The notes under the pieces are model-generated. The model had not been told where the DNA came from. It did not search any database and was given only the letters and a program-made list of their open reading frames with translations. 64,000 bases of DNA, taken from the NCBI RefSeq assembly GCF_003602235.1, contig NZ_QZVS01000084.1, positions 1 through 64,000 on the forward strand. Direction: 5' to 3'. This stretch comes from Cryobacterium melibiosiphilum. Its GTDB lineage: Bacteria; Actinomycetota; Actinomycetes; Actinomycetales; Microbacteriaceae. A program made the translations under genes and the position numbers. This document shows, in pieces, positions 1-64,000 of the stretch. Numbering within the stretch: the first letter of the stretch is position 1; each line of letters starts with the position of its first letter.

Positions 1-1525
1 GCGCGCGGGCTCCGGGCTGGCCGTCGGCCGGGGTGCGCGGCTGCCGGCTGCCCTGCGGGTCGCCGGGCTGGCTGTGCGACGACAGTTCGAGCTGTGCGGC
101 CAGGCCGGATCCGCCCGGTCCGGCACCGGCAAGGTCGCGGCGCAGGTCGGGCATGATCAGGCGCAGGGCCTCGCGGGCCGCGTCGCTCGGGCTGAACAGT
201 TCGACGCGGATGCCGTCGGCCCCGACGTGCGCCCGCACGGTGACCGGCCCGAGGTTGTCGGGCGACACGGTGAGGGTCATCACGTGTTCGCCGGGCGCGA
301 CGCCGACAAGCGAGAACAGCGGCTTGGCGAGCTGGCTCGCGAGCGGGGTCTGCGGGGTGGCCGCGGCCGGGGTCGGCGCTTCGGGTGCGGCAATCGGGGT
401 GAGAGTCGGTGTCGGGGCCGGCACGGGTGCTGCCACGACCGGGGCGACGGATGCCGGTGACGGGGTCGACGCTTCGGGTTCGGCACGGGCGGGGGCGGGT
501 GCAGCGGTTGTGGGTGCCGCGGTGGTCGTAGGGGCCGCCTCAGGCGCTTCCGAAGAGGGTACGGCCGAGGCCAAGGAGGCATCGGCCACCGGGACGTTCG
601 TGACGGAACTGGTCGGAACCGGCGCGCTGATCCGGTGCGCGGGGGCGGCGGCTGATTCAAGCGGCTCAGCGCCTGCCGGAGCGGGAACGGCCGAAATGCC
701 GGCGGGTGCTTCGAGTGGGGTCGGCGCAGCCGGGGTCGTCTCTCCCCGTAGCTCTGCAGCCGGGGTGGGGTTGGCCTCAACCATGCTCGGCTCAACCATG
801 CTCGGCTCGGCCATGCTCGCGACAACCGGGCTCACGACAACCGGGCTTGGCGCAACCGGGCCACTCGCCGTCGGGCGCGACTGCGGCGTCTTGGTCGCCA
901 CCGGGGTCGGCGCGACCGCAAGGGCAGGTGCCAGTGCCAGCGCGGGCGCGGGCACAGGAGCTGGACCGGGAGCGGGTGCAACATCGCGTCCCTGATCCGG
1001 CGTCTCGGTGCGTCCGCTGGGCTCGGTTGCGCGAGTCGACATCGGGGCGACGGCCGCCGGAACGATCACGGTCGCACCGAGGGTCAACGGCTCGGAATGG
1101 GCGAGTTCGGAGGCTGCCGGTTCGGCGTCGGTGCGTTCCGGGTCGGCGCGTTCCGGGTCTGGGCGTTCGGCGAGGGTAGGCCCTGCTGCCGGCGCCACGC
1201 TCTGCTCAGGCGCGACACTCGGCGCGACGGTCGACTCGGGCTCGCTGGTCGGCGGCGTGGAAGCCGCCTCAACCAGAACGTCAGCAACGTCAGGCGCGGC
1301 GAGTGGAGCCACACCGGGTGTGGCGAGCGGGTCGGCGAGTGCCGCGTGTTCTGCGGTGGGGTGCTCGCGACCGGCGGCAGGTACGGCTAGAACGGCGGGG
1401 GCGACGGCGAGCACCGTCAGAACGGCGGCGAAGGCCGCGGCTCCCCCGGCGACCGTCGCAGACGTTGTTCCGGCTGCGGCGGCCGGGCGGGCCGGGCCAG
1501 CGCTGGGGGTCAGCGCGAGGCTCAT
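1..1525 (-). CDS. fliK: Flagellar hook-length control protein FliK (3' end cut by window)
   Basis: The reading frame is open from the ATG at 1525 to the left edge with no stop, so about 508 codons are visible and the C-terminus is missing. The first ~390 residues are a low-complexity Ala/Pro/Thr/Val-rich ruler-like region. From about residue 416 the sequence reads MTLTVSPDNLGPVTVRAHV, then an R-x-x-LRLIMPDLRRDL stretch, which is the core of the Flg_hook (FliK C-terminal) domain. FliK measures hook length and triggers the export switch. It overlaps the upstream NlpC/P60 gene by 4 bp (ATGA). Identity rests on the C-terminal motif and on position at the end of the fliI-fliJ operon. Confidence 0.88.
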   Translation of the reverse strand, partial: MSLALTPSAGPARPAAAAGTTSATVAGGAAAFAAVLTVLAVAPAVLAVPAAGREHPTAEHAALADPLATPGVAPLAAPDVADVLVEAASTPPTSEPESTVAPSVAPEQSVAPAAGPTLAERPDPERADPERTDAEPAASELAHSEPLTLGATVIVPAAVAPMSTRATEPSGRTETPDQGRDVAPAPGPAPVPAPALALAPALAVAPTPVATKTPQSRPTASGPVAPSPVVVSPVVASMAEPSMVEPSMVEANPTPAAELRGETTPAAPTPLEAPAGISAVPAPAGAEPLESAAAPAHRISAPVPTSSVTNVPVADASLASAVPSSEAPEAAPTTTAAPTTAAPAPARAEPEASTPSPASVAPVVAAPVPAPTPTLTPIAAPEAPTPAAATPQTPLASQLAKPLFSLVGVAPGEHVMTLTVSPDNLGPVTVRAHVGADGIRVELFSPSDAAREALRLIMPDLRRDLAGAGPGGSGLAAQLELSSHSQPGDPQGSRQPRTPADGQPGARA

Positions 1526-2208
1526 GAGGCACTCCCCTTCGCGAACGAGGCAAAGGCCGCGCTGAGCATGTCGGTGCCGTTCGTCGCGGTGCTGACCGAA
1601 GCGGCGAGGCTCGCGGCAGCGGTCGACGCGGTCTGCTCGGGGATGACGCGGCGGATGGTGTCGATGTCGGCATCCGTCATGTACGCCTCGACGATGCACA
1701 CGTCGCGGCCCGGGTAGGGCGCGTGGATGACCTTGTTGTTGCCGGCGTAGATGAGAATGTGGGCGCCGCCGCCGGTCACAATCAGGTCGCCGGGCTGGGC
1801 CTCGGCGAGGGAGCCGACCTCGGTGCCGATGGTCATCTGGCCCGAAACCAGGCGCGGAACCTCGATGCCCAAATCGGCATAGACGGTCTGCACGAGTCCG
1901 GAGCAGTCCATACCGGTCGAGTCCGTGCCGCCGAAAACGTAGGGAACGCCCAGGTATTTCTGGGCGGCGGTGGCGACATCCGTTCCTGTTACCGAACCGG
2001 GGTTGGCGATCGTTCCGCCGGTGGTCGGGACGGTCACACCGAGAGCGGATGCGAGGCTCGAGGCGAAGTCGGACGCCGACCCGGAGGTGGCGGCCGACGA
2101 CAGCGCCGTGCTGGCCGCCGTCGTGGAGGCGGCCCGGGCCGTGCCGGAGAACTGCTGCAGCATGGACTGGATCTGTCCGATGCGGCCCAGGGTGTCGCTC
2201 ATGCTCAT
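1522..2208 (-). CDS. NlpC/P60 (C40) cell-wall peptidase in the flagellar operon
   Basis: 228 residues. Residues 1-25 resemble the helical start of axial or rod proteins. Residues 25-75 are an Ala/Ser/Thr-rich linker, and 78-190 are an NlpC/P60 domain with the nucleophile Cys102 in MDCSGLV, His150 in GGGAHILIY and His162 in KVIHAP. No signal peptide is evident, so export through the flagellar type III apparatus is likely (inference). It sits between fliJ and fliK with 4-bp overlaps on both sides. That is where a cell-wall hydrolase equivalent to FlgJ would be needed to open peptidoglycan for the rod. The family cleaves peptide cross-bridges rather than glycan strands. A second in-frame ATG lies at 2202. 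Confidence 0.85.
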   Translation of the reverse strand: MSMSDTLGRIGQIQSMLQQFSGTARAASTTAASTALSSAATSGSASDFASSLASALGVTVPTTGGTIANPGSVTGTDVATAAQKYLGVPYVFGGTDSTGMDCSGLVQTVYADLGIEVPRLVSGQMTIGTEVGSLAEAQPGDLIVTGGGAHILIYAGNNKVIHAPYPGRDVCIVEAYMTDADIDTIRRVIPEQTASTAAASLAASVSTATNGTDMLSAAFASFAKGSAS

Positions 2209-2639
2209 TCGGGCTCACCGCCCTGGTCGCGGTGCCATCGGGTCGACGCGATCTCGTCGAGCACGGTCTGTTCGGCGTGGAGGTCTTCGGCGGCGAGGGC
2301 TTCGGCGTGGCGCACCTCGAGCTTTTCGAGGCGGATCGAGTCGGCGCGGGCCGAATCAAACACGGTCTGGGCGGCATCCACCGCAGTCTGGTGATTGCGG
2401 CCGAGAGCGTCGAGGTCACCGAGCATGCTGCGCGAGGACGCGCGGGCCGCGGCCATCGCGCTCAGTGCGGCCATGTTCGTGGGGGTCGCCGAGAGGCCGT
2501 AGAGCGCGGCGCGGGCGTGCAGGTGGCGTTCGTCGTGAGCGCGCAGCGCCGTGTTGGCGGCGGCGAGCTCGACCGAGGCCTGATCCTGCTGCAGGTGCCG
2601 CAGGCGCAACAGGCCGGCGAGCGGAAAGAGGCGCTTCAT
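2205..2639 (-). CDS. fliJ: Flagellar export chaperone FliJ
   Basis: 144 residues, close to the usual FliJ length. It begins MKRLFPLAGLLRLRHLQQDQA, as FliJ proteins typically begin with a basic start and an L-x-x-LLxLR helix, and it is predicted to be almost entirely alpha-helical coiled coil. FliJ is the central stalk-like component of the export ATPase complex and escorts chaperones. It follows fliI with a 4-bp overlap and overlaps the NlpC/P60 gene by 4 bp. Sequence conservation of FliJ is low, so the call relies partly on position directly after fliI. Confidence 0.85.
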   Translation of the reverse strand: MKRLFPLAGLLRLRHLQQDQASVELAAANTALRAHDERHLHARAALYGLSATPTNMAALSAMAAARASSRSMLGDLDALGRNHQTAVDAAQTVFDSARADSIRLEKLEVRHAEALAAEDLHAEQTVLDEIASTRWHRDQGGEPE

Positions 2640-4767: not shown

Positions 4768-5767
4768 CTTCAGCTCCGCGGCTGATGGTGATCGAGCCCT
4801 GGGCCTCGAGGTCGCGGATGGCGCGCACGATCTCCGCACGGGCGTCTTCCACCTGGCGCACACGCACCGGGCCGAGACTCTGTGTCTCGTCGTCGAGGAT
4901 GTCGCGGTTGCGTTCGGACAGGTTCGCTCGGATGACCTCGACGACGGCACTCGAGGTGCCCTTCATGGCGGTCGCGAGAACGCTCGCGTCGATGCCGCGC
5001 AGTACCTGCTGCACGTCGCGGCTCTCGAGGCGCACGATGTCGGTGAAGGTGAGCATGTGGGAGCGCACCTCGTCGGCGAGGGCCGGGTCGCGGGCGTCGA
5101 GGCCTTCGAGCAGGGCGCGTTCGGTGGCGGCATCCGCTCGGTTGATGATCTCGACCAGCGGCTGCACGCCGCCGACGACCTCGATCGGGTCGCGGGACAC
5201 GCTCGCGCCGACCCGCAGCTTCAGCGTGTCGGTGACGACCCGAATAGCCTCGGGCGAGGCACTGCCCATGGTGGCGATGCAGAGCACGACGTCGGTGCGC
5301 AACGGGTCGCTCATGCCGCTGAGCACGGCGGATGCCCGTTCCCGGCTGAGGTGGGCCAGCACGAGTGCGACCGTCTGGGGCAGTTCGCCCTCGAGCAGGT
5401 TGATGACGCCGGAGGCGTCGGAGGAGTCGAGAAACTCGAAGGCTTTGCCGGCCAGGGAGCTGGCGACCCGAGCCATGACGCCGGCCGCTCGATCAGAGCC
5501 GTAGGAGGATTCGAGGAGCCCCCGGGCGAAGTCGTGGCCGCCCTGGGAGTGCCGACCGCCGCGCCGCGAGATCTCCTGGAACTCGACCAGGATGCTCTCG
5601 GCGAGTTCGGCGTCGACCTTGTTGAGCTGGATGAGTTCGGCCGTGATGACCTCGGCCTCGGCGTCGGTGAACTGCTTCATCACATCGGTCGCCTGGATCG
5701 AGTTCATGTTCATGAGCACGACGGCGACCTTCTGGGGGCCGTTCAGCTGTTGCAGCGCGTCGGTCAT
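4751..5767 (-). CDS. fliG: Flagellar motor switch protein FliG
   Basis: 338 residues, the standard FliG length. Start MTDALQQLNGPQKVAVVLMN is typical. N-terminal, middle and C-terminal armadillo-like domains follow, with the C-terminal charged-ridge helix around FTDIVRLESRDVQQVLRGID. FliG couples the MS ring to the stator units and generates torque. Its ATG overlaps the fliF stop by one base (TGATG), implying translational coupling. It is followed by fliH, whose start is embedded in the last codons of fliG. Confidence 0.96.
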   Translation of the reverse strand: MTDALQQLNGPQKVAVVLMNMNSIQATDVMKQFTDAEAEVITAELIQLNKVDAELAESILVEFQEISRRGGRHSQGGHDFARGLLESSYGSDRAAGVMARVASSLAGKAFEFLDSSDASGVINLLEGELPQTVALVLAHLSRERASAVLSGMSDPLRTDVVLCIATMGSASPEAIRVVTDTLKLRVGASVSRDPIEVVGGVQPLVEIINRADAATERALLEGLDARDPALADEVRSHMLTFTDIVRLESRDVQQVLRGIDASVLATAMKGTSSAVVEVIRANLSERNRDILDDETQSLGPVRVRQVEDARAEIVRAIRDLEAQGSITISRGAEDEYVN

Positions 5768-7368
5768 CAGGACTGCCGATCACTCATCAGGCTGCGCAGG
5801 TAGTCCGCGGTGCGGTGCGGATCGCTGCGGGCCAGGTTGTCGATCTCACCGCGACGCAGGTCGCCCTCGGTCGGCGGCGTGAGCAGTTCGGTCGGGGCGT
5901 CGATCGGCCGCGGCGTGAACGGAGCGGGAAGCGCGATCGGCATGGTCATGCCGCCGAGGGCCTGCTGCTTCGTGAGCGCGTCGAGGGCGTCGAGTTCGTC
6001 CATGTCGACGGTCTCGCGGCTCTGCCGGCGCGAGCGGCGGGCGTAGACGAGCAGCGATGCGGCGACGGCGAGCACGATGCCGACCGTCATGACGATCGTG
6101 CGGATGAGCTCGGCCTGCGCGGCGGCAGCGGTGGCGTCCGCGGCGGCGGCCAGGGCGGCATCCGCGGCGGCAGCGCCAGTGGCGTCGAAGGCCATCACCT
6201 CGACGGTGACGGCGTCGCCGCGGGCCGCGTCGATGCCGGCGGCCGAAGAGACGAGCGAGGTGATGTCGGCGACGTTGATGCCGGCGGCGGCATCGGCGTT
6301 GACGGCCACGGAAACCGTCTGGCGGGTCATCTGGCCGGCCGGAATCACGGTCGACTCGGTGACCTTGTTGACCGCGTTGTTGCGTGTCGTGGATTCGGAG
6401 TCGAAGGTGCCGTCATCGCCGGTGGTTGTGGCGGCGGTGTCGGTGCCGAGCACGCCGCCGGCCGTGGCGCCGGAACCGGTGTAGGTCTCGGTCTCGCTGG
6501 TCTCGGTGAGCGCCGGAGCATCGACCGGGTTGGTGAAGGTCTCTTCGACCCGTTCGCCGGTCTGGGTGCTCATGTCGGCGGCGACGACCACGGTGGCGTT
6601 GCCGCTGCCGACGACCGTGTCGAGCATGGCCTGCACGGCGCCCTGCACGCGGCTTTCGTAGTCGGAGGCCTGCTGAGCGCTGGAGCCGGTGGTGCCCACG
6701 CCCACGGCGCTGAGCACGGTGCCGGCCGCGTCGACGACGGCGACGTCGCTGGCCTTCATGCCGTCGATCGACGCGCTGGTGAGGTGCACGATCGCCTGAA
6801 CCTGGTCGTTGGACAGAGTCACGCCGTTGCTGGTCTGCACGAAGACGGATGCCGTGGGGTCACCCTGCTCAGACACGAACACGCTCTCCTCGGGGATCGC
6901 GAGCTGTACCGAGGCGTTCTGCACGCCGTCGAGAGCCATGATCGTCGAGGCCAGTTCACCCTCGAGCGCACGCTTGTAGGTGACCGACTGCTGAAACTCG
7001 CTCGAGGTGACGCCCATGGTGTCGAGCAGCGAGTAGCCGCCCGTGCTGTCGGAGGGCAGGCCGGCCGCGGCCGACTTCAGGCGCTGGGCGTAGACATCCG
7101 CTTCGGGAACCATGATGGTGGCGCCGCCGTCGGCGAGCTCGTAGCCGATGCCGTCGGCCTGCAGCTGCTCGACGATGGTGTTGGCGTCGGAGCCACTGAG
7201 GCCGGAGAACAGGGGGGTGTATGCGGGCTTGGCGGCCCACATGGTGAGGGCGGCGATGCCGAGCACGAGCACGGCGACGCCGATGATGGCGAGGGTGCGC
7301 TGGCCCACAGTGAACGCCTTGATGGCGTTGCCGAAGCGTCGGAATGCCGACGTCATCTGAGCGGGCAT
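5767..7368 (-). CDS. fliF: Flagellar MS-ring protein FliF
   Basis: 533 residues. Transmembrane helix 1 is at about 24-46 (TLAIIGVAVLVLGIAALTMW). The periplasmic YscJ/FliF ring-building region starts AYTPLFSGLSGSDANTIVEQL. A Thr/Ala-rich linker is around 300-340, and helix 2 is near 418-440 (TIVMTVGIVLAVAASLLVY), followed by a cytoplasmic tail that ends in a FliG-binding segment. FliF forms the membrane-embedded MS ring on which the motor and export gate assemble. It overlaps fliE and fliG by one base each. Confidence 0.96.
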   Translation of the reverse strand: MPAQMTSAFRRFGNAIKAFTVGQRTLAIIGVAVLVLGIAALTMWAAKPAYTPLFSGLSGSDANTIVEQLQADGIGYELADGGATIMVPEADVYAQRLKSAAAGLPSDSTGGYSLLDTMGVTSSEFQQSVTYKRALEGELASTIMALDGVQNASVQLAIPEESVFVSEQGDPTASVFVQTSNGVTLSNDQVQAIVHLTSASIDGMKASDVAVVDAAGTVLSAVGVGTTGSSAQQASDYESRVQGAVQAMLDTVVGSGNATVVVAADMSTQTGERVEETFTNPVDAPALTETSETETYTGSGATAGGVLGTDTAATTTGDDGTFDSESTTRNNAVNKVTESTVIPAGQMTRQTVSVAVNADAAAGINVADITSLVSSAAGIDAARGDAVTVEVMAFDATGAAAADAALAAAADATAAAAQAELIRTIVMTVGIVLAVAASLLVYARRSRRQSRETVDMDELDALDALTKQQALGGMTMPIALPAPFTPRPIDAPTELLTPPTEGDLRRGEIDNLARSDPHRTADYLRSLMSDRQS

Positions 7369-7688
7369 CAGGCCTGCATCCGCATGATCTCGGTGAACGC
7401 GTCGATGCCCTTGTTACGGATCGCGGCGACGAGTTCGAGGGTGACCTGCGCCTCGGTCGAGGCGATCGTGGCGCTGGCGATGTCGCCGACACCACCCTCG
7501 ACGGCTTTGAGCGCGAGGTTGTTGGAGGTGTTCTGCAGGGTCTGCACGTTTTCGACCGCGCCGGCGAGGGCCACGCCAAAGCTGGCGCCGTCGTCCTGAT
7601 TGCCCTGGGTGCTGGCGATCGAAGTGGTGCCCGAGACACCAGCGGTGCCGGCAACGCTCGACACCAGGGAAATTGCGCTGAAAGGCAT
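7368..7688 (-). CDS. fliE: Flagellar hook-basal body adaptor FliE
   Basis: 106 residues, the normal size. The C-terminal half, VENVQTLQNTSNNLALKAVEG through TLELVAAIRNKGIDAFTEIMRMQ, carries the diagnostic FliE pattern ending in AY/FxEIMxMQ-like residues. FliE joins the MS ring to the rod and is the first exported component. It lies between flgC and fliF with one-base overlaps, the usual flgBC-fliEF order. Confidence 0.95.
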   Translation of the reverse strand: MPFSAISLVSSVAGTAGVSGTTSIASTQGNQDDGASFGVALAGAVENVQTLQNTSNNLALKAVEGGVGDIASATIASTEAQVTLELVAAIRNKGIDAFTEIMRMQA

Positions 7689-8517: not shown

Positions 8518-8527
8518 GGAGTGGGGG

Positions 8528-12015: not shown

Positions 12016-12348
12016 CTACTGGGGCTTGGGCTCCAGGATTTGCAAGACGTCGGCGTTGGACTGCCGGGCCTGGGCACTGACGGCGGTGGCGGGCTCGGCG
12101 AGGATCTTCTCCTGCGTCACCTCGGCCACCTGAGCGGCCATTTCACCGCTCGTGATGCGCGACGCTGCGGCGAGGCGGTTTTCGGTGGCGACGGCATCCG
12201 TCTTGGTAGCCAGGGAGACGGTGTCAACCGGCGTGCTCTGCACCCCGCCCGAGAGGGCGACGGTTGGCTGGGCTACTCCCCCCCGGGTGCCCTCCGCTCT
12301 CGCCGGCGTGGACGGTGTCGAAATATTGTTGTTCAGCTGCATACCCAT
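12016..12348 (-). CDS. Miniature flagellin-like protein
   Basis: 110 residues from ATG 12348, with GGAAG 8 nt upstream. The first residues MGMQLNNNIS copy the flagellin start. A Pro/Thr/Ser-rich middle follows, and the last ~50 residues (ENRLAAASRITSGEMAAQ, then VTQEKILAEPATAVSAQARQ, then ILEPKPQ) align without gaps to the flagellin C-terminal D0 helix. Almost all of the N-terminal D0 and all of D1 are missing. It may be a decayed duplicate or a minor axial or export-related protein. The 5' leader hairpin is conserved with flagellin, but no sigma-28 promoter was recognised. The frame is intact. Confidence 0.75.
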   Translation of the reverse strand: MGMQLNNNISTPSTPARAEGTRGGVAQPTVALSGGVQSTPVDTVSLATKTDAVATENRLAAASRITSGEMAAQVAEVTQEKILAEPATAVSAQARQSNADVLQILEPKPQ

Positions 12349-18626: not shown

Positions 18627-19966
18627 CACTTACCTCCCACAGACAGTTCAGAGACGCCGAAGAACGGCCGCACCTCGGCGAGGGTCGCCAGGAACAGGTC
18701 GACCTCGTCGGTGGTCGTGTACAGGTACGCGCTCGCCCGCGTCGACGCGGTCACACCGAGGCGTTTGTGCAGCGGCTGCGCGCAGTGGTGCCCGACGCGC
18801 ACGGCGATTCCGGCGTCGTCGAGGTACTGGCCCACGTCGTGCGCGTGCACGCCGGCCACGTCGACCGCGGCCAGGCCGAGCCGCTCCACACCCGCCCCGG
18901 GACCGAGCAGCCGCACCCCGGGAATTTCGGCGAGGCCCGCGACGAGGCGCTGCCCGAGCTCGGCCTCCCACGCGGCAATGCGGCCCATGCCGGTTTCGGT
19001 CAGGTAGTCCACGGCCGCGGCGAGGGCGATCGCCTGCGAGATGCGTTGCGTTCCGGCCTCGAAGCGCTGCGGCGGCGCCAAAAACTCGGCGGCCTCCATC
19101 GACACGGTCGTGATCATCGACCCGCCGGTCAGGAACGGCGGCATTGCGGCGAGCAACTCGGCGCGGCCGAACAGGGCTCCCACGCCGGTCGGACCGAGCA
19201 TCTTGTGCCCGCTGAACACGGCGAAGTCCACGCCGAGCGCGGTGACGTTCACGGGCAGGTGCGGCACGGTCTGGCAGGCATCGAGCACGGTCAGCGCGCC
19301 CACGGCCTTGGCGAGCGCCACGATCTCCTCGACCGGGTTGATCACGCCGGTCACGTTGGAGGCGTGGGTGAAGGCCAGCACCCGGGTCTTCGCATTCACG
19401 ATGACGGATGCCGCGGCCAGGTCGAGCGAGCCGTCATCCAGAATCGGAATGAACCGCAGGGTCGCCCCCGTGCGCAGGGCGAGCTGCTGCCACGGAATGA
19501 GGTTCGCGTGGTGCTCCCCCTCGGTGACGACGATCTCGTCGCCGGCGCCGAGCCGGAACCGGCGGGCGGCCGGGCCGCCGAGCCAGAGCGACGCGTTGCT
19601 GAACGAGTACGCGATCAGGTTGATCGCCTCGGTGGCATTGGAGGTCCAGACGATCTCATCGGTCAGGGCCCCGACGAAGGCGGCGACCTTCTCCCGCGCC
19701 AGTTCGAAGCTCTCCGTGGCGATCACCGCGAGGGTGTGGGCACCGCGGTGCACGGCGGCGTTGCGCTGCTCGTAATACTCCTGCTCGGCTTCCATCACGC
19801 TGATCGGGTTCTGCGAGGTCGCGCCCGAATCCAGATAGGTGAGCGGATGCCCGTTCACCCGTTGCGCGAGCACCGGAAAGTCGTTCCGGATGCGTTCCAC
19901 CTCGACATCCGTCAGCGCGAGGGCAGACCGGGTCGGCGGGGAGGTCGGGGCGGGGAAAGGGCTCAT
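18626..19966 (-). CDS. sufS: Cysteine desulfurase SufS
   Basis: 446 residues from ATG 19966. A group II PLP-dependent desulfurase: PLP lysine in FSGHKMLGPTGVGAL, the ATEAINLIAYSF segment, and the catalytic Cys in VGHHCAQPLHKRLG near residue 390. It supplies sulfur to SufU for Fe-S clusters. A -10-like TACCCT lies exactly six bases before the ATG, so the transcript may be leaderless. The start region carries a strong inverted repeat (19986-20014). No sufBCD genes are adjacent. Confidence 0.95.
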   Translation of the reverse strand: MSPFPAPTSPPTRSALALTDVEVERIRNDFPVLAQRVNGHPLTYLDSGATSQNPISVMEAEQEYYEQRNAAVHRGAHTLAVIATESFELAREKVAAFVGALTDEIVWTSNATEAINLIAYSFSNASLWLGGPAARRFRLGAGDEIVVTEGEHHANLIPWQQLALRTGATLRFIPILDDGSLDLAAASVIVNAKTRVLAFTHASNVTGVINPVEEIVALAKAVGALTVLDACQTVPHLPVNVTALGVDFAVFSGHKMLGPTGVGALFGRAELLAAMPPFLTGGSMITTVSMEAAEFLAPPQRFEAGTQRISQAIALAAAVDYLTETGMGRIAAWEAELGQRLVAGLAEIPGVRLLGPGAGVERLGLAAVDVAGVHAHDVGQYLDDAGIAVRVGHHCAQPLHKRLGVTASTRASAYLYTTTDEVDLFLATLAEVRPFFGVSELSVGGK

Positions 19967-21234: not shown

Positions 21235-21774
21235 GTGACGTCTCTTTCCACCGAGGAAGCCCCCCGTCGGTTTCTCGAATCTGATCGCGCCCACGTGCTG
21301 CTGGTTCGAGTGATCCGCATCGCATTTCCGCACGACACCCTGCCGGTTTCGGCGTATGAACGCACGGCGGACAGCCTGCTGAACCTCGCCGTGCAGACGA
21401 ACCGCATGACCCTCGCCGTGGCGAACGGCCTCGACAGCCTCGGCTCGCTGCCGCAGGGCGATTTTCTCGGCCTCCCCGACGACGAGGCCTTCGCGCACCT
21501 GAAGTCCATCGAACGCACCGAATTCTTCACGTTCGTGCGCGGCAATACCGTGCTCACGCTGTACAACCTGCCGGAGGTGTGGGCCGCACTCGGCTACGAG
21601 GGGGCATCCGTCGAGAAGGGCGGCTACCTCACCCGCGGGTTCGACGACCTGAACTGGCTGCCCGACCCCCGCGTCGAGGAGTACAGCGGCGAACTCACCC
21701 GGGTCGAACAGGGCCCGCTGCCCTACCCCGTCAAGGCATCTCGTCGCACCGAGGCTGACGAGGTGACCCTGTGA
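21235..21774 (+). CDS. Small subunit-like protein of a GMC oxidoreductase
   Basis: 179 residues from GTG 21235, with AAGGAGTG upstream. Weak similarity to the gluconate 2-dehydrogenase subunit 3 type: VIRIAFPHDTLPVSAYERTA, then LKSIERTEFFTFVRGNTV and PEVWAALGYEGAS. Such small subunits partner a flavin GMC subunit. No twin-arginine signal is present here, unlike many members. The GTG start of the GMC gene overlaps its stop by 4 bp, so the two should be made together. Confidence 0.65.
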   Translation: MTSLSTEEAPRRFLESDRAHVLLVRVIRIAFPHDTLPVSAYERTADSLLNLAVQTNRMTLAVANGLDSLGSLPQGDFLGLPDDEAFAHLKSIERTEFFTFVRGNTVLTLYNLPEVWAALGYEGASVEKGGYLTRGFDDLNWLPDPRVEEYSGELTRVEQGPLPYPVKASRRTEADEVTL

Positions 21775-38388: not shown

Positions 38389-39903
38389 GTGAGCATGGCA
38401 AGCTGGGGGGTGACCTTTTCTGCAGAGGGCGGGCCCGGGGCATCCGTCGCCGACCCCGACTCGACCGCCAGCCGCGCCCACGTGTACCGCGGCCATATCT
38501 TTCACGTCGCCGGGGCACCGACCGTGCAGCAGGCCCACGACCACCTCGTGTCGCTGCCGGCTGGCGCCCTCGTCACGAGCACGACGGGCACCATCGCCTG
38601 GGTCGGGGAGTTCGAGGCGCTGCCCGCCGAGTTCGCCGCCCTGCCGGTGAGCCGCGCCGGGTTCATCGTGCCGGGCTTCGTCGACACGCACGTGCATTTT
38701 CCGCAGACCTACACGACGGATGCCTACGGCGGCGGCCAGCTGTTGGAATGGCTCGAGACCTGCATTTTTCCGGCCGAGGCCGAGCTCGCCGACGCGGCCT
38801 TCGCCGCCCAGGTCGCGCGGGACTTCACCCGCGCCCGCATCAACGCCGGCACCACGAGCGCCCTGGTCTTCGGGTCGGCGTTTGCGCACGCGCAGGACTC
38901 GCTCTTCGAGGAGACCCGCCGGGCCGGACTGCGGGTGGTGAGCGGCCGCGGCATCCAGACGGTCGGGTCGCCGGCCGCCCAGGCCCTGCTCACGAGCGAA
39001 GCGGATGCCCTGCGGCTGGCCGAGGAGGAGATCGCCCGCTGGCACGCCGTCGACACCGGCGACCCGACGACCGCACTGCTGCAGGTCGCGCTCGTGCCCC
39101 GGTTCAGCCTCTCGGTCACACCCGAAACCCTCGCCGGTCTCGGCGCCCTGTACGAACGCGTCCGGGACGACGGCGTATATTTCCACAGCCACCTCAACGA
39201 GAACAATCGGCCGATCACCGGCGAAATCGATGCCGTGAAGGCGGTGTACGGGGTCGACACCTACCTCGACACCTATGACGGACTGTTCCTGCCCGGATCG
39301 ACGCGCGGCGGGTCGAGCCTGCTGGGGCGGCGCAGCATCCTCGCGCACGCGGTGCACTGCACCGATGCCGAGCTGGCCCGGCTCGCCGCGACCGGGTCGT
39401 CGATCGCGCACTGCCCGACCTCGCAACAGTTTCTCGGATCGGGCACGATGCCGTGGCTGCGCACGATCGCCGCGGGCGTGACCGTGGCGATCGGCACGGA
39501 TGTCGGCGCCGGCGACGAATGGCTCGTCTCCCGGGTGCTCAACGACGCCTACAAGACACACCTGTCCGAGCCCGGCGACGACGGCGTCGCCATCGACCCG
39601 GCCGCGCTGCTGTTCACGGGTACCCTCGCCGGCGCGCGGGCCCTCGATATGGAGGCCCGCTACGGCAACTTCGACCTCGGCAAAGACGCAGACTTTCTGT
39701 TGATCGACCCCGAGGAGTGGCCGCCGCTTTCCCGGGTGCTCGAGCACGGCATCCGTTCGCCTGCTGCTGATTCGGCCGGGCAAGCGGATGCCCCCACGCC
39801 GGCCGAGCAGACCCTGTTCGCGCTGCTGATGGGGTTGCGCGAACCGGCTATCACCGGCGTCTACGTGCAGGGTCGCCGCGTGCAGGCGCCCGCCGCCGAC
39901 TAG
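38389..39903 (+). CDS. guaD: Guanine deaminase
   Basis: 504 residues from GTG 38389 (VSMASWGVTF), supported by GGAGG six nt upstream. Metal-dependent deaminase: GFVDTHVHFPQTYTTDAYG, FHSHLNENNRPITGE, LAHAVHCTDAEL, SIAHCPTSQQFLGSG and VAIGTDVGAGDEWL. It converts guanine to xanthine, feeding the xanthine dehydrogenase encoded upstream. About 50 residues longer than typical, mostly at the N-terminus and a Pro/Ala insert near 460. Confidence 0.92.
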   Translation: MSMASWGVTFSAEGGPGASVADPDSTASRAHVYRGHIFHVAGAPTVQQAHDHLVSLPAGALVTSTTGTIAWVGEFEALPAEFAALPVSRAGFIVPGFVDTHVHFPQTYTTDAYGGGQLLEWLETCIFPAEAELADAAFAAQVARDFTRARINAGTTSALVFGSAFAHAQDSLFEETRRAGLRVVSGRGIQTVGSPAAQALLTSEADALRLAEEEIARWHAVDTGDPTTALLQVALVPRFSLSVTPETLAGLGALYERVRDDGVYFHSHLNENNRPITGEIDAVKAVYGVDTYLDTYDGLFLPGSTRGGSSLLGRRSILAHAVHCTDAELARLAATGSSIAHCPTSQQFLGSGTMPWLRTIAAGVTVAIGTDVGAGDEWLVSRVLNDAYKTHLSEPGDDGVAIDPAALLFTGTLAGARALDMEARYGNFDLGKDADFLLIDPEEWPPLSRVLEHGIRSPAADSAGQADAPTPAEQTLFALLMGLREPAITGVYVQGRRVQAPAAD

Positions 39904-41992: not shown

Positions 41993-43353
41993 GGCGAGTC
42001 CGATCCTTCGGCACCGACCGGCACGGCCTCGGCGCGGTACTGCTCGAACAGGTCGAGAACGGCGGCCTCGAGCGCGTCTATGGCGCGGGCGACATCCGCT
42101 TCGGTGACGGATTCGTCGGGGTGGTGGCTCACTCCCCCGGCGCAGCGCACGAACAGCATGCCGATCTCGGTGACGGCGGCGAGGGCCATCGCGTCGTGGC
42201 CCGCCATCGAGAAAAGTTCCGGGGGTGCGGCGGCGTCCGGCTCGGCGCTTTCGGTCGAGCGGATGCCCGCAGCGACGACCCCGCGCATCCGCTCGCTGCA
42301 GTGCGCGGCCGAGGCGGAATGCGTCTGCTCCCAGGTGACCTGCAACCCGCGACGCTCGCTCATCGCGGTCATCGCCGCCTTGATGCCGAGCCACGCGGTG
42401 TCGCGGGCGTCGTCGAACTCGCCGCGCAGGTCGAGGCTGAATTCGACGCGACCGGCGATGACGTTGACGGCGTCGGGGAACACCACGAGGTGGCCGACGG
42501 TGGCGATGAGCCCGGTCGGGTGTCCGGCGTCGCCGCGGGCGATGCGCTCGATCGCGAGCACGGCCTCGCTCGCGCCGGCGAGGGCGTCGCGGCGGCGGGC
42601 CCAAGGGGTTCCGGAGTGGCCGGCGGCGCCCTCGACCACGATCTGGAAGCGGCGGGCGCCGGCGATCGAGGTGACGACCCCGAGCGGAAGCTCGGCCTCG
42701 TCGAGCACCGGGCCCTGCTCGATGTGGGCCTCGAGGTAGCCGACGAGCTCGGCCGGGGTGCGGGCGGCCGCGCCGACGGCGGCCGGGTCGAGGCCGAACG
42801 CGAGGTAGGCGTCGTGGAGGGTGACGCCGTCGGCGTCTTCGAGGGTCCACCAGTTTGGGTCCCAGGTTCCGGCGACGGCGCGGCTGCCGAGCAGGGTAGT
42901 GCCGAAGCGGGTGCCCTCTTCATCGCCGAAGGCGAGCACCTCGAGGGCGACCGGACGGTCGGCGGCGGGAACGCTCGCGGCGATGCGTTCGGCGACGGCG
43001 AGGGCGATCAGCACCCCGAGGATTCCGTCGTAGCGCCCGGCGCTCGGCACGGTGTCGAGGTGGGAGGCGAGCAGCAGCGCGGGCAGTCCTTGCCGGTGGC
43101 CGTCGAGTCGGGCACACTGGTTGCCCGCGGGGTCTTGCCAGGTCGTGAGGCCGGCGGCGCGCATCCACTGCCCGGTGCGGGCATTGACGGCGGCGTGCTG
43201 CGGCGAGAGGTAGACCCGCTCGATGAGTCCGTCGGGCAGGGCCGAGTGGGTGGCGAGTTCATCGCAGCGGTTCATGACGACGGATGCCGCGGTGCTCGCG
43301 GGCGGGCCGCCCGCGATGGCCGAGCTGCGGGGCGTGATCGGCTCCGGGCTCAT
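41989..43353 (-). CDS. allC: Allantoate amidohydrolase
   Basis: 454 residues from ATG 43353, overlapping pucG by 4 bp. M20 family: HLDTVPSAGRYDGILGVL, FGDEEGTRFGTTLLGSRAV, YLEAHIEQGPVLDEA, and GHSGTPWARRRDALAGASEA of the dimerisation lid. Binuclear-metal enzyme converting allantoate to ureidoglycine, CO2 and ammonia. The first ~27 residues are an extension; ATG at MNRCDEL (43275) could also serve. Confidence 0.9.
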   Translation of the reverse strand: MSPEPITPRSSAIAGGPPASTAASVVMNRCDELATHSALPDGLIERVYLSPQHAAVNARTGQWMRAAGLTTWQDPAGNQCARLDGHRQGLPALLLASHLDTVPSAGRYDGILGVLIALAVAERIAASVPAADRPVALEVLAFGDEEGTRFGTTLLGSRAVAGTWDPNWWTLEDADGVTLHDAYLAFGLDPAAVGAAARTPAELVGYLEAHIEQGPVLDEAELPLGVVTSIAGARRFQIVVEGAAGHSGTPWARRRDALAGASEAVLAIERIARGDAGHPTGLIATVGHLVVFPDAVNVIAGRVEFSLDLRGEFDDARDTAWLGIKAAMTAMSERRGLQVTWEQTHSASAAHCSERMRGVVAAGIRSTESAEPDAAAPPELFSMAGHDAMALAAVTEIGMLFVRCAGGVSHHPDESVTEADVARAIDALEAAVLDLFEQYRAEAVPVGAEGSDSP

Positions 43354-44787: not shown

Positions 44788-44821
44788 ACTACGGATGCGC
44801 TCCGGATGCCGCCCGGCCCAA

Positions 44822-52024: not shown

Positions 52025-54265
52025 AGATGCGCTGAGCGCCCAGGCGAGCGGCTCGTTGGCGGCGGCGACATCACGGTAGATGCCGGTCAAGGCCCGCGCC
52101 ATCGCCTGGATGGTGAAGTTGTCGGCGACCATGCGGCGTGCCCGCTCGGCATAGTCGGCACCGAACGGCCCCTCCGCCAGATCGAGGGCGGCGGCCATGG
52201 CAGCGGCCAGCGCGGCTTGGTCTCCGGTATCGACGAGCAGCCCGGTCACCCCGTCCTCGACGTAGGTCGCCGGGCCGCCGCCGGCGGGGGCGACGACGGT
52301 GAGTCCGCTCGCCATGGCTTCGAGCACGGCGAGGCCGAATTCTTCTTTGACGCTCGCGCAGACGTAGACGCCGTGCGAGGCCGCGAAGCCCGGCCGGCCG
52401 ACCCGAACCGCGGCGAGCCACCGGGCGACGGTGTCGTTGCCGCGGTGCCCGGCCAGCAGCAGGCCGTGGGCCGCCGCGGCGTCAACAGGAACCGCGCCCG
52501 CCATCAGCTGCAGCTGCTGCTGCTCATCGGACGACGGATGCTGCAGGTCGCCCCCCACAATCAGCACATTGACTCGCGCGCGCAGTGTCGGGGTGGTGGC
52601 CCAGGCGGTGACGAGCGCCGCCATGCCCTTCACCCGGTGCAGCCGGCCGACGCTGATGATGAGCGGCAGGCCGCGGCGCTCGGGCGGCAGCGTGGCGAGC
52701 AGGGCGTCGAGATCGCCGAAGTCCGCCGCCGAATCCGCCGCCGCGTCGGCCGTGGCTTCGCCTCCTGCACGAACAGCGTCGGCAGTGGCTGTGGCGGTCG
52801 AAGCGGCAGCCGAGGCCAGGGCATCCGCTCGTGACTGCTCGATGACGGCGAGGTCGATGCCCTCGGCGATCACCGAGTGTCGTTCCGGGTGTGCGGTCAC
52901 GTCGATGCCGACGAGGTCGCGCATGTCGCGCTCGAGTTCGGGCCGGGGAAACAAGACGGTGTGTTCGGCGTCGGCGGCGAGGCGCTGCACGAGGCGGGCG
53001 CGAAACCAGAAGTGCTCGACGGCGTCGACGGTGCCGAAGTTGGCGTGGCTCAGAGCCCCGGAGTGCTCGAGCGAGTTGATGACGGCGTGCGGGTCGGGTG
53101 CGACGGTGAACACCACGGGAATGTCGAGCTCCCGGGCGACGGTCGCGGCGGCGAGGCTGCCGACATCCGCCATGCGCAGGTGGATAGCGTCGACGGTACC
53201 GGCGGCACGCAGAATGCGACGGATGCCGCGCTGCGCGGCGATCCGACGGGGCCAGGCATCCGCGGCAGGCATCGGGCCGCCCGGGAACGGAACGGCGGCG
53301 AAGGAATGCCCGGCGAGGGTCGATCCGACCGTGGCCAGGCCGGTCAGCGCGGCGTCATAGCCGCCGCGGGAGATGGTGATGACCCGCTCGACCTGGTCGT
53401 TCGGTGCGGCGTAGGCCTGATTCGCACCGCGGGCGACGAGCGCGTCGCCGAGGCGCACAAGCAGGGTGGCGATGCCGCCGTTGTCGCCGGCGCCGACCTG
53501 GGACAGTTCGCCGTCGATGTCGGCGTGGAGAAACAGTTGGGCCACGGTCAACCCCTGGCTCCACGGCGGCCGCGGATAGGACGGCACGGTCAGGTCGAAG
53601 AGGGCGAGCCGGGCGACAGCGGCGAGCTCGTCACTGCCGAACGAGAGGTTCGTGACGATGCTGAGGCCGGCCTCGGTGCTCGGCCGGTCGCCGAGGGCGG
53701 CGACGGCGGCGGCACGCACCACGGGGGGTTCCGCCTCGGCGGCGGCGACCCGGCGCAACAGGCGGTCGGGGATGCGGCCGGCCACGAGGCCGATGGTTTC
53801 GACCAGGCGCGCGCGGGCATCCGCTTCATTGATACCGATCAGGGCGCCTTCGAGGGCGAGGGCCACGGAGTCGGGCGCCGAGGCGCCCCACTGCTCGAGG
53901 GTGCGCTGGGCGAGCATGCCCGAGAATCCGCCAGCCGCGACCAGGCGGATGAGGCCGGCGATGGCGTCAAGCCGGGGCAGCCGCGAGCCGAAGGCCCAGG
54001 CGGCGTGCTCGCGCAGGTAGTCGGCGTCATGGCCGAGCAGGGCGACGAGCGCGTCGTCGGCGGTGTCGTCGAAGACCTGGCCGAGGGCGTGCACGGCCGC
54101 GATCGCGGTGAGCTGGTCGCTGGAGTCGACGGCGGCCCGCGCGAGCAGGCGCACGGCCCGGGTGCCGCCGTCACGGCTCGCCGCGATCGTCAGCGCGTCG
54201 GCGGCACGCATTCCGTCGAGGATGGTGGCGGTGCGGAGTTCGTCCAGGGCGGTGAGGGGTCCCAC
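52022..54265 (-). CDS. HEAT-repeat protein fused to a GT4-type glycosyltransferase
   Basis: 747 residues from GTG 54265, with GGAGGAG seven nt upstream. Residues ~1-225 are helical HEAT-type repeats, with recurrent patterns such as QLTAIAAVHALGQVFDDTAD, YLREHAAWAFGSRLPRLDA and PPVVRAAAVAALGDRPSTEA. Residues ~235-747 are a sucrose-synthase-like glycosyltransferase, with HADIDGELSQVGAGDNGGIA, LIISVGRLHRVKGMAAL, and CASVKEEFGLAVLEAMASG with the E-x7-E pair. An Ala/Asp-rich insert sits near 480-520. The combination is unusual, and donor and acceptor are unknown. It pairs with a second glycosyltransferase downstream. Confidence 0.85.
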   Translation of the reverse strand: MGPLTALDELRTATILDGMRAADALTIAASRDGGTRAVRLLARAAVDSSDQLTAIAAVHALGQVFDDTADDALVALLGHDADYLREHAAWAFGSRLPRLDAIAGLIRLVAAGGFSGMLAQRTLEQWGASAPDSVALALEGALIGINEADARARLVETIGLVAGRIPDRLLRRVAAAEAEPPVVRAAAVAALGDRPSTEAGLSIVTNLSFGSDELAAVARLALFDLTVPSYPRPPWSQGLTVAQLFLHADIDGELSQVGAGDNGGIATLLVRLGDALVARGANQAYAAPNDQVERVITISRGGYDAALTGLATVGSTLAGHSFAAVPFPGGPMPAADAWPRRIAAQRGIRRILRAAGTVDAIHLRMADVGSLAAATVARELDIPVVFTVAPDPHAVINSLEHSGALSHANFGTVDAVEHFWFRARLVQRLAADAEHTVLFPRPELERDMRDLVGIDVTAHPERHSVIAEGIDLAVIEQSRADALASAAASTATATADAVRAGGEATADAAADSAADFGDLDALLATLPPERRGLPLIISVGRLHRVKGMAALVTAWATTPTLRARVNVLIVGGDLQHPSSDEQQQLQLMAGAVPVDAAAAHGLLLAGHRGNDTVARWLAAVRVGRPGFAASHGVYVCASVKEEFGLAVLEAMASGLTVVAPAGGGPATYVEDGVTGLLVDTGDQAALAAAMAAALDLAEGPFGADYAERARRMVADNFTIQAMARALTGIYRDVAAANEPLAWALSAS

Positions 54266-56821: not shown

Positions 56822-58221
56822 GTGCGGTCTCCAGTCATCGCAGGCTGAGCGGATGCGCCGGGTGCGGCATCCGCTTCGTGATAATCACTGTGCACCGGTT
56901 TCACGAACAGGTTGGCGACGAAGCCGATCACGAGCAGACCGACCATCGTCAGCAGCGCCGGCTGGTAGGCCGCCGCGGTCAGCTCGCCCGGGGTGCCCTG
57001 CGCGTCGAGGAACGCGTTGACGATCAGCGGGCCGGCGATTCCGGCCGCCGACCAGGCGGTGAGCAGGCGGCCGTGGATGGCGCCGACCTGGAACGTGCCG
57101 AACAGGTCACGCAGGTAGGCCGGCACGGTCGCGAATCCGCCGCCGTAAAACGAGATGATCACGAAGGCGAGCACGACGTAGAGGCCGGTGCTGCTGCCGC
57201 CGAAGAGCGCGAGCAGCAGGTACAGCACGGTTCCGGCGCCGAGGTACATCATGTAGATGTTCTTGCGGCCGGTCTTGTCCGAGGTGGCCGACCAGGCGAA
57301 ACGGCCGCCCATGTTGGCGATCGACAGCAGCCCGACGAAGCCGCTCGCGACGGCGGCGGTGACCAGCGAGGTGCCGTCCCCCTGGCGGAAGAAGTCCTGG
57401 ATCATCGGGGCGGCCTGCTCGAGGATGCCGATGCCGGCGGTCACGTTGCAGAACAGTACGATCCAGACCAGCCAGAACTGGCGGGTGCGAATCGCGTTGC
57501 GTGCGGAGACGTGGTTGCTCGTGACGAGGGCCTTGACCTTGATGGTGCTCGGGTCGAAGCCCTTCGGGGTCCAGCCTGCGGCGGGCACCTTGATCGTGAA
57601 CGCGCCGAACATCATGTAGGCGAGGTAGAGCACACCGAGGGTGAGGAAGAGTTTGCCCACGGCGTCGCCGCTGGCGACCCAGTCGGCCGCGCCGGAATTG
57701 GGGTCGTAGAAGGCGAGCAGCGCGGTGGACACCGGGCTGGCGATGAGGGCGCCGCCACCGAAGCCCATGATGGCCATGCCGGTCGCGAGTCCCGGGCGGT
57801 CGGGGAACCATTTGATCAGCGTCGACACCGGCGAGATGTAGCCGATGCCGAGGCCGATACCGCCGATGAAGCCGTAGCCGAGGTAGACGAGCCAGAGCTG
57901 GTTGCTGAAGATGCCGAGCGAGCCGACGAGAAAGCCGCCCGACCAGAACAGGGCCGCGACGAACATCGCCTTGCGGGGGCCGTTGGTGTCGACCCAGGTG
58001 CCCATGATCGCGGCGGACAGCCCGAGCATGACGATGGCGATCGAGAAGATCACGCCGATCTGGGTCAGGCTCGCGTCGAAGTGTTCCACGAGGGCGGTCT
58101 TGTAGACACTCGTCGCGTAGGCCTGGCCGATGCACAGGTGCACGGCGAGGGCGGCCGGCGGAATAAGCCAGCGGTTGAATCCGGGTGGGGCGATGGTGCG
58201 GTCACGGGCAAGCCAACTCAT
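56818..58221 (-). CDS. OFA-family MFS transporter (oxalate/formate antiporter type)
   Basis: 467 residues from ATG 58221, with GAGGA upstream. Twelve predicted helices with OFA signatures: RWLIPPAALAVHLCIGQAYA, WVDTNGPRKAMFVAALFW, YGFIGGIGLGIGYISPVSTL, KWFPDRPGLATGMAIMGFG. Members exchange oxalate, formate, or related monocarboxylates. It is divergent from an FdhF-like oxidoreductase, suggesting formate or oxalate as the substrate. The small subunit follows. Confidence 0.9.
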   Translation of the reverse strand: MSWLARDRTIAPPGFNRWLIPPAALAVHLCIGQAYATSVYKTALVEHFDASLTQIGVIFSIAIVMLGLSAAIMGTWVDTNGPRKAMFVAALFWSGGFLVGSLGIFSNQLWLVYLGYGFIGGIGLGIGYISPVSTLIKWFPDRPGLATGMAIMGFGGGALIASPVSTALLAFYDPNSGAADWVASGDAVGKLFLTLGVLYLAYMMFGAFTIKVPAAGWTPKGFDPSTIKVKALVTSNHVSARNAIRTRQFWLVWIVLFCNVTAGIGILEQAAPMIQDFFRQGDGTSLVTAAVASGFVGLLSIANMGGRFAWSATSDKTGRKNIYMMYLGAGTVLYLLLALFGGSSTGLYVVLAFVIISFYGGGFATVPAYLRDLFGTFQVGAIHGRLLTAWSAAGIAGPLIVNAFLDAQGTPGELTAAAYQPALLTMVGLLVIGFVANLFVKPVHSDYHEADAAPGASAQPAMTGDRT

Positions 58222-62845: not shown

Positions 62846-62893
62846 GGGCGTTCCGCCGCACACAGGCCGCCGCACACAGGCCGAAGCAGCGGG

Positions 62894-64000
62894 TCAACCG
62901 CCGATGTAGGACATTTCGATTTTCTTGGCACCGGATGCCCGCAGCTCGCGGGTCTTGGAGCTGCGCAGCTCCGAATAGCGGTCGGAGCGGTCGCGCCAGA
63001 TGTGCGCCATGACGGTGGAGAGCTGCTCGTCGGTGCAGCCGCCGCGCATCAGAGCGCGCAGGTCGTGGCCCTCGGTCGCGAACAGGCAGGTGAAGAGCTT
63101 GCCGTCGGTGGAGACCCGGGCCCGCGAGCAGGAGTGGCAGAACGACTGGGTGACGCTCGAGATCACGCCGATCTCGCCGCCGCCGTCGCGGTAGCGCCAG
63201 CGCCTCGAGGTTTCGCCACTGTAGTTCGGAGCGACCTCTTCGAGCGGCAGTTCCTCGTTGATGCGGCGCACGACCTCGGCCGAGGGGATGACCGCGGCCA
63301 TGTCCCAGCCGTTGCTCGTACCGACGTCCATGAACTCGATGAACCGCAGAATATAGGGGGTGTCCTTGAAATGGCGGGCCATCGCCACGATGTCCTGGTC
63401 GTTCTTGCCGCGCTGCATGACCATGTTGATCTTGATCGGGCCGAGGCCCACCTCGTGGGCGACATCGATGCCGTGCAGCACCTTGGCGACGGGAAACTTC
63501 ACGTCGTTCATGGCCTGGAAGGTCGCGTCGTCGAGGGAATCGAGCGAGACGGTGACCCGTTTGAGGCCGGCATCCTTGAGCGCCTGCGCCTTGGTCGCGA
63601 GGGCCGACCCATTCGTGGTGAGCGCGATGTCGATCTCGCGGCCGTCGGGGGTGCGCAGCTCGGCGAGCATACCCACGAGCTCCTCGAGCCCACGGCGGAG
63701 CAGCGGTTCGCCCCCGGTCAGGCGGATCTTCTCCACGCCGTGCGCGATCGAGATGCGGGCGAGTCGGGTCATCTCTTCGAAGGTCATCAGTTCGTCGCGT
63801 TCCATGAACGCGAAGTCACGGCCGAAGATCTCCTTGGGCATGCAGTACACGCAGCGAAAGTTGCAGCGGTCCGTGACCGAGAGGCGCAGGTCCTGCAGGG
63901 GGCGGTTGCCGCGGTCACGAATCAGGCCGGTCGGGGTTTCCAGGTGCTCGGGAATGTCCGCGAGGGTGTGGAAAAACCGCCCAGCGGGTTCAGGAAGTTC
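62894..64000 (-). CDS. moaA: GTP 3',8-cyclase MoaA (5' end cut by window)
   Basis: The frame is open from the stop at 62894 to the right edge, about 368 codons, with the start outside. Radical SAM motif CNFRCVYC in [33 protein letters not shown], the second-cluster cysteines in [20 protein letters not shown] and the following CLFA, and a C-terminal SYIGG. MoaA makes the first molybdopterin precursor from GTP. It supports the molybdoenzymes encoded in this window. Confidence 0.94.

Follow-up and report, generated by a model that had tools for sequence, protein, structure and literature searches.

The closest described counterparts of the sequence treated here are the DNA uptake sequences (DUS) of the Neisseriaceae, short non-palindromic words repeated thousands of times over the two strands. 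DUS form dialects one to two bases apart around a conserved core, can be present as two dialects in one genome and are spread family-wide. In Neisseria, many DUS lie in terminators. The uptake signal sequences (USS) of the Gram-negative Pasteurellaceae, 9-10 bp long with AT-tract flanks, are likewise a genome-wide iterated self-word in competent bacteria. Two further kinds of word bear comparison: the cyanobacterial highly iterated palindrome HIP1 and its variants, with densities near 1 per kb and alternate words that replace each other between relatives, and Chi, a non-palindromic octamer marking self DNA, whose characterised sites show a skew along the replichores. Here we describe a word of this kind, the octamer GGCATCCG with its core GCATCCG, in a 64-kb stretch of Cryobacterium melibiosiphilum (assembly GCF_003602235.1, contig NZ_QZVS01000084.1, contig positions 1..64000; hereafter the window). 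Words of this kind, in several dialects, are found in many but not all genera of the Microbacteriaceae. Our tentative reading is that the word marks self DNA and is maintained by a machine that processes DNA sequence-specifically, the likeliest candidate being a DNA-uptake sequence, and that in a Gram-positive family. We give this reading slightly less than an even chance.

Frye et al. (PMC3630211) report the same dialect pattern in Neisseriaceae DUS, including one genome with two dialects. Unlike DUS, the copies described here belong to a Gram-positive actinobacterial family, are mostly coding, show no clear terminator-like pairing in the five other genomes compared and come with no known ComP, their uptake role being putative. 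The AT-tract flanks of USS are absent around the motif sites of the window, and unlike HIP words, GGCATCCG and most of its dialects are non-palindromic (CGGATCCG is a palindrome).

Copy number, form and strand neutrality

Counts are given for both strands unless a strand is named, and pairs such as 291/38 are observed over expected copies. GCATCCG occurs 101 times in the window, 48 (+) and 53 (-), while window base counts alone predict about 15; an earlier sequence-only reading had estimated roughly 100 near-evenly split copies against the same expectation, and both figures were reproduced. The octamer accounts for 65 of these (31 (+), 34 (-)), the leading G being missing at the other 36 of 101. 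The earlier remark that most copies have the longer form is to be qualified by these 36, and among the examples cited for it those at 1669, 5129 and 44803 are octamers while that at 44792 is a heptamer only (CGGATGCG). Downstream of GCATCCG, C or T fills the first position at 83 and the second at 80 of the 101 sites, often as TC or CT, and the motif is longer than the octamer originally stated, namely GCATCCG plus two pyrimidines.

Across the 4.71-Mb genome there are 3,177 copies of GGCATCCG (1,542 (+), 1,635 (-)), compared with 248 (113 (+), 135 (-)) of the reversed string, a same-composition control. The genome-wide signal suspected earlier is thus real, whereas the spread through the family and the dialects had been missed. 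No 8-mer of equal composition is as frequent: GGCATCCG ranks first of 592 strand-collapsed classes in the window (65 vs a median of 5) and again in 497 kb of the genome (353 vs 35), and reaches 291/38 under a second-order Markov model in sampled stretches. Gaps between sites are near-geometric, with coefficients of variation of 0.87 to 1.17 in six genomes; no periodicity was sought beyond this gap distribution.

Inside the sampled stretches of seven genomes neither strand is favoured (p 0.57, 0.93, 0.06, 0.99, 0.98, 0.92, 0.78), in agreement with the earlier view of a non-polar motif unlike Chi or the FtsK-orienting polar sequences (KOPS), and no KOPS-type polarity towards dif was seen in the sampled stretches of these genomes. 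A polarity suspected from runs of '+' copies proved an artefact, stretch L021 holding 1 (+) and 4 (-) copies. Inverted pairs (- then +) within 60 bp number 20 in this genome vs 7.8 expected; nine lie outside called genes, two of these are identical copies, and some are perfect hairpins. An excess is unclear elsewhere (G116 6 vs 6.8, G164 8 vs 6.8, G205 2 vs 1.1, none in G060 or G433).

Pressure on DNA rather than protein

Genes were called by a simple caller based on open reading frames (ORFs), not taken from curated annotation, and synonymous codons were shuffled within each called gene, which leaves codon pairs unmodelled. The 46 called genes of the window hold 52 coding octamers vs 7.3 +/- 2.3 after shuffling (maximum 13 in 60 shuffles), and 283 genes in 405.7 kb of the genome hold 244 vs 42.3 +/- 4.8. 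The commonest coding readings, NCG-GAT-GCC and GCA-TCC-GYN, draw on GAT (19% of Asp codons in called genes) and GCA (6% of Ala codons). These results bear out two earlier suggestions, that the motif forces rare codons and that the pressure acts on DNA, not protein. Site density inside and outside called genes agrees within two-fold in six of eight genomes; in G433 and G154, sites are about three-fold denser outside.

Rare codons are also retained within motif copies. We compared orthologous codons for the same amino acid inside and outside the motif; species pairs overlap, and p-values are therefore optimistic. At Microbacterium-like loci the same codon was kept inside vs outside the motif in 440/984 (45%) vs 2,892/9,469 (31%) cases for GAT, 145/425 (34%) vs 1,221/7,222 (17%) for GCA, 55/69 (80%) vs 978/2,763 (35%) for CAT and 44/58 (76%) vs 2,191/8,781 (25%) for GGA. 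Agromyces behaved alike (GAT 47/66 vs 566/1,941; GCA 62/133 vs 332/1,542). For Cryobacterium together with this genome, CCG (22/22 vs 1,289/2,037) and CGG (15/18 vs 735/1,660) were retained, and retention of GCA and TCC inside the motif was not significant. ATC retention was slightly lower inside motifs (0.93 vs 0.98 in Microbacterium-like loci, 0.91 vs 0.99 in Agromyces). This codon-matched test replaced one of whole-word conservation against composition permutations, which was ambiguous: 52-53 of ~345 permutations were equally conserved at Microbacterium-like loci, 55/293 and 48/129 in Agromyces and 2/169 in Cryobacterium.

Dialects across the Microbacteriaceae

UvrA of this genome shares 90-92% identity with that of four Cryobacterium species and 85-86% with that of Agreia, Plantibacter and Subtercola, which places the host in the Microbacteriaceae, in Cryobacterium or close to it. 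All 37 genomes of the host genus, this one included, carry GGCATCCG at 6.6 to 22.8 times the reversed control, vs 1.0 to 2.4 times in 23 genomes from 19 other families of the same order. Over 398 family genomes from 85 genera its density ranges from ~6 per Mb to ~1,036 per Mb, the extremes being 8 copies in 1.4 Mb (G304) and 4,041 in 3.9 Mb (G116); in G110 the 43 copies in 2.9 Mb fall under the control of 115. Within Microbacterium (g106) alone density varies more than 8-fold, from 313 in 3.3 Mb (G221) to 2,791 in 3.4 Mb (G164).

Words were ranked by a second-order Markov model plus codon shuffling. A maximal-order ranking was discarded as misleading, since sub-words are themselves enriched, and when many words are ranked by z on short or orthologous stretches, others come up too. 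In sampled stretches, several genomes poor in GGCATCCG proved to spell the word differently. The dialect words are GCATCCGYY, GGCATCC (220/28 in G116, with free flanks), CGGCATCC (172/16 in the Microbacterium genome G164, 84/11 in G060, 140/13 in G122, 119/12 in G187) and CAGCATCC (87/4 in G205, 41/4 in G433). Probably CGGATCCG (72/19 in the Microbacterium genome G221; as a palindrome, each copy counts on both strands) and GATCCGGA (29/1 in G154) are further dialects. Coding copies exceed synonymous shuffles for CAGCATCC in G205 (72 vs 8.2), CGGATCCG in G221 (27 vs 7.3) and GATCCGGA in G154 (16 vs 5.2). Read on the opposite strand, the dialect words share GGAT followed by GC or CC. Weaker words that may not be dialects are GGAGGCC in G359, CAGGATC in G145 and GCGGATC in G179.

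Named 20-kb loci agree with this picture. CGGCATCC reaches 284/57 over 21 Microbacterium loci, and CGGATCCG 38/3 in M. sorbitolivorans and 24/4 in M. sp. G2-8. Leucobacter salsicius holds CCGGATCC at 12/0.7, and nine Leucobacter loci together give only 28/19 for GGCATCCG; the Amnibacterium and Arthrobacter loci lack a word excess. No word dominates in 80 kb each of the streamlined genomes G072, G118 and G089, where GGCATCCG stands at 4/2.7, 1/2.5 and 0/3.0 and CGGCATCC at 9/2.7, 7/2.5 and 5/3.0.

Two observations were made along the way. The UvrA of locus L059, deposited as Planococcus sp. APC 4015, shares 81% identity with that of this genome, as in the Microbacterium loci, and the locus carries the Microbacterium motif; that assembly is probably mislabelled. 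In G037, from another family (L192-L195), CGGCGTCC/GGACGCCG occur 127 times vs 29 expected, possibly another iterated word outside the Microbacteriaceae.

Dialect replacement and rewriting in place

All five sampled genomes of genus g23 hold both GGCATCCG and CAGCATCC in differing proportions: 1,864/575 copies, respectively, in G060, 1,286/1,680 in G255, 1,141/1,835 in G299, 835/3,355 in G143 and 537/2,789 in G205, with reversed controls of 82-102 and 98-117. Over 39.6 kb aligned between G060 and G205, 10 of 41 CGGCATCC sites of G060 read CAGCATCC in G205 and 7 are unchanged, compared with 139/11,449 (1.2%) for other words starting with CG. In the reverse direction 10 of 37 CAGCATCC sites read CGGCATCC and 4 are unchanged (control 139/3,949, 3.5%). 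Such same-place swaps mean that sites were rewritten where they stood instead of being copied in. The remaining orthologous words were diverse (CGGCGTCC, CGGCGTCG and others), which shows that new sites have also come from separate point changes; the minority words of this pair, 14 CGGCATCC in G205 and 7 CAGCATCC in G060, in no case have the alternative dialect as their counterpart. For four g85 genomes the contig starts are not syntenic, with 21.8 kb aligned for one pair and 0 to 1.1 kb for the others.

A proposed self-recognition word, most likely for DNA uptake

In the mechanism we propose, GGCATCCG would be this species' dialect of a self-recognition sequence common to much of the Microbacteriaceae, and a sequence-specific DNA-processing step would favour DNA bearing the species' current word. 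Copies would arise at many places by ordinary point mutation, be retained via homologous recombination or selection, and be rewritten as the recogniser's preference drifts. The most likely step would be DNA uptake in natural transformation, through ComEA/ComEC and a Tad/Flp-type pilus. The single recogniser, its action at uptake and the spread of sites by recombination are inferred. What favours uptake is the match to Neisseriaceae DUS (copies in the thousands, no strand preference, a core with dialects around it, genomes that mix dialects, rewriting in place and little enrichment in part of the foreign DNA), combined with reports of transformation and competence in actinobacteria. Among the options named by the sequence-only reading an uptake sequence is the best-supported candidate. 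The fuller version, an uptake-sequence system in an actinobacterial family with several dialects, graded replacement in a genus and site-by-site rewriting between species, in which some small phages may copy the host word, is one that we would place somewhat further short of even.

The literature gives this reading a setting. PMC4322843 and PMC6370729 report natural transformation by a Flp/Tad pilus in Micrococcus luteus, another actinobacterium, and PMC8591293 reports homologues of competence and tad genes in freshwater Microbacteriaceae. PMC7811141 describes uptake-sequence systems for two Gram-negative families, and among the open-access matches listed none reports such a system from Gram-positive bacteria; a search of PMC2843746 did not find the motif. 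Competence genes, proposed earlier as a check, are present. ComEC was detected in 52 of 52 genomes searched, 48 of them from the family, the secretion/pilus ATPase family PF00437 in 48 of 48, and this genome has leuS-comEA-comEC-holA in a row. A PilB-type ATPase was rejected as a requirement: best matches stronger than 1e-130 occur in many genomes, but not in the motif-rich G116, G137, G164 and G271. As a separate observation, three PilB-type ATPases, each followed by a second match to the T2SSE ATPase family, lie within 29 kb (G000:C90:51314-80098), an arrangement that suggests three type IV pilus clusters in tandem in a Gram-positive bacterium.

Part of the mobile DNA shows little or no enrichment. 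Three low-GC contigs of this genome hold GGCATCCG at 4/4.1, vs 178/23.3 in twelve other stretches; one of them (L013) codes for a modification enzyme of the MmeI type and for a protein whose closest relative among plasmids is carried by one of C. arcticum. L008 (4.0 kb) and L010 (5.7 kb), two smaller low-GC contigs outside that count, contain 2 copies apiece. A Curtobacterium plasmid stands at 5/5.8 for GGCATCCG, and six phages (Min1 nearly whole; SanaSana, Quenya, Lynlen and Shayna with ~22 of 41-42 kb; Magritte with 40 of 133 kb) carry CGGCATCC at 0 to 1.9 times expectation.

Several points weigh against an uptake sequence. The main one is that all five small Orlajensenviridae (Efeko, PoRanda, BonaeVitae, Noelani and Leafy, which are interrelated) carry CGGCATCC at 5.1 to 7.8 times expectation, an enrichment that an uptake tag does not predict. 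In 300 synonymous shuffles of three of these phages, 13 copies compare with 4.2 (maximum 9), 12 with 4.3 (maximum 11) and 6 with 4.0 (maximum 10), so that CGGCATCC lies above every shuffle in two of the three. A C. arcticum plasmid, with GGCATCCG at 12/4.3, is no lower than four Cryobacterium chromosomal loci (19/9.0). The competence and pilus genes do not discriminate, because they are equally present where no word dominates, and ComEC, found in every genome searched, was dropped as a discriminating gene. The inverted-pair excess is confined to this genome among six tested, and the similar coding and noncoding densities of six of the eight genomes are unlike the terminator DUS of Neisseria.

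The Orlajensenviridae are conspicuous in another respect: these 17-kb phages (L224-L228) are strikingly palindrome-rich, and the palindrome GACATGTC (both strands counted) occurs 12 to 18 times vs 0.2-0.3 expected in four of the five.

If the word is an uptake sequence, barriers to gene exchange would be predictable from sequence in a family that is very common in soil, on plants and in freshwater, and the right word on donor DNA could improve transformation of Microbacteriaceae. The graded dialect series would then be a natural experiment on a recogniser co-evolving with thousands of sites, and the evolution of self-recognition could be watched in progress. A Chi-like or epigenetic word would instead be a new member of its class with unusually fast turnover.

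Alternative explanations

A HIP-like origin, with the motif as target of an orphan methylase or of methyl-directed repair that creates and protects copies, is unlikely, if the least so of the alternatives. Elhai (PMC4390886) proposes such an origin for HIP1 in cyanobacteria and links HIP variants to matching methylases. A candidate exists, since a PF01555 methylase (E below 1e-40), an orphan of the N6_N4 type, is present in 22/22 motif genomes and 28/33 further family genomes, missing from genus g73 (G110, G179), G089, G146 and G208, and missing at that strength from 14/16 genomes of other families. Its nearest solved relatives are RsrI and CcrM; the ORF of this genome lies near 5385-6281 (+) of contig C93 (L201; relatives L202-L220). 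Also in favour, words one base off at the sixth position, GGCATACG, GGCATGCG and GGCATTCG, are under expectation here (3/11, 11/40 and 11/32), an expectation inflated by the motif itself. However, the C-terminal half, where the recognition region is expected, is very similar across dialects in 20 PF01555 orthologs, and in G041, from another family, the ortholog is alike although GGCATCCG stands there at 5/7.1 in 54 kb (560 vs 238 reversed in the whole genome). For these reasons PF01555 probably does not set the dialect, and with its presence also in G072 and G118, where no word dominates, it was rejected as the driver; a match in G039 proved to be an unrelated methylase.

C5 methylases (PF00145) are missing in 11/22 motif genomes searched, this one included, and no methylase matched to dialect was found with PF01555 and PF00145, the Type I, IIG and D12 classes not having been searched for; the methylation target proposed by the sequence-only reading is weakened to that extent. 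A product of Vsr very-short-patch repair was rejected, Vsr being found in five of 45 family genomes and missing from the other 40, among them this one. Actinobacteria are not known to have MutS or MutL, which also counts against repair. At CGGCATCC sites of Microbacterium-like loci, 19 of the 24 possible classes of single-base difference occur, the largest with 26/135, a variety unlike the product of repairing a single lesion type. In G164, matches to Vsr and to a C5 methylase are neighbours (C1:2139470-2140725), the usual very-short-patch arrangement.

We consider rather improbable a Chi-like recombination or protection octamer for the family's helicase-nuclease, e.g. AdnAB, by which worded ends would be repaired, not degraded, and small phages would carry the word for protection. 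Its size, its non-palindromic form, its genome-wide occurrence, its scarcity in the greater part of the mobile DNA tested and its abundance in all five Orlajensenviridae would fit, but the strand neutrality of seven genomes, the absence of RecC from 27/27 family genomes (AdnAB and AddAB were not searched for) and the fast change to several dialects within one genus are unlike Chi. A binding site for some abundant protein that organises the chromosome or discriminates xenogeneic DNA, and that tolerates changes of the word, appears more doubtful still: genome-wide occurrence, near-random spacing and three low-GC contigs without enrichment agree with it, but rapid in-place dialect change would need a global binder to switch specificity repeatedly, and no candidate protein was sought or found. 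A restriction-modification target would be expected to be avoided, and the motif is in strong excess. Finally, a by-product of codon or codon-pair usage or composition is barely credible, since many GC-rich words are frequent at 69% GC but the reversed-string control, the ranking among 592 same-composition classes, the synonymous shuffles (codon pairs as such not modelled) and the copies outside called genes show composition and codon usage to be insufficient.

Sites in the window and minor observations

The sites of the window are listed below. The arms of the inverted pair outside called genes, with adjoining bases, can form a hairpin, GAGCGGATGC / GCATCCGCTC, judging from their complementarity.

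Positions of GCATCCG and GGCATCCG in the window, with close pairs of sites
Feature	Position	Strand	Remark
GCATCCG starts, part 1	1670, 3411, 4661, 5130, 6158, 7376, 12194, 13145, 20410, 21604, 22706, 23985	+	
GCATCCG starts, part 2	24873, 27115, 28276, 29109, 29410, 29648, 30384, 31369, 31802, 33283, 35610, 36407	+	
GCATCCG starts, part 3	37331, 38440, 39749, 40463, 42285, 43417, 44113, 45039, 45522, 46335, 47522, 49020	+	
GCATCCG starts, part 4	50360, 50747, 52821, 53256, 53817, 54939, 55683, 56649, 56867, 58754, 59960, 61649	+	
CGGATGC starts, part 1	207, 448, 2046, 3759, 5329, 6846, 10231, 15187, 17071, 17650, 18287, 19405, 19844, 19887	-	
CGGATGC starts, part 2	22975, 24487, 24812, 25465, 27365, 28746, 29960, 31508, 32178, 32877, 33935, 36699, 37194	-	
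CGGATGC starts, part 3	38717, 39002, 39785, 40911, 42260, 43281, 44792, 44803, 45106, 46010, 46409, 46999, 47779	-	
CGGATGC starts, part 4	49178, 49706, 50039, 50780, 52535, 53220, 55250, 56504, 56850, 58571, 61742, 62030, 62932	-	
GGCATCCG site	1669..1676	+	followed by TC
GGCATCCG site	5129..5136	+	followed by CT
GGCATCCG site	12193..12200	+	followed by TC
GGCATCCG site	21603..21610	+	followed by TC
CGGATGCC (GGCATCCG on the - strand)	19844..19851	-	second heptamer 43 bp further, at 19887
Heptamer pair, + then -	39749..39791		36 bp apart, coding
Inverted pair, - then +	42260..42291		25 bp apart, outside called genes
CGGATGC heptamer, not octamer	44792..44798	-	reads CGGATGCG
CGGATGCC octamer	44803..44810	-	
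Inverted pair, - then +	53220..53262		36 bp apart, coding
Inverted pair, - then +	56850..56873		17 bp apart, coding by simple caller

Elsewhere in this genome, octamers are roughly three-fold denser than average on the 13.8-kb contig C66 (L005), at 2.24 per kb, and the two hairpin pairs at its positions 4010 and 4174 are identical. The window also contains 15 copies of TGTCACA/TGTGACA on both strands vs 3.6 expected under a maximal-order Markov model, and its segments 5767-10678 and 28294-31863 encode flagellar genes (FliF, FliD) and a molybdopterin-binding oxidoreductase.

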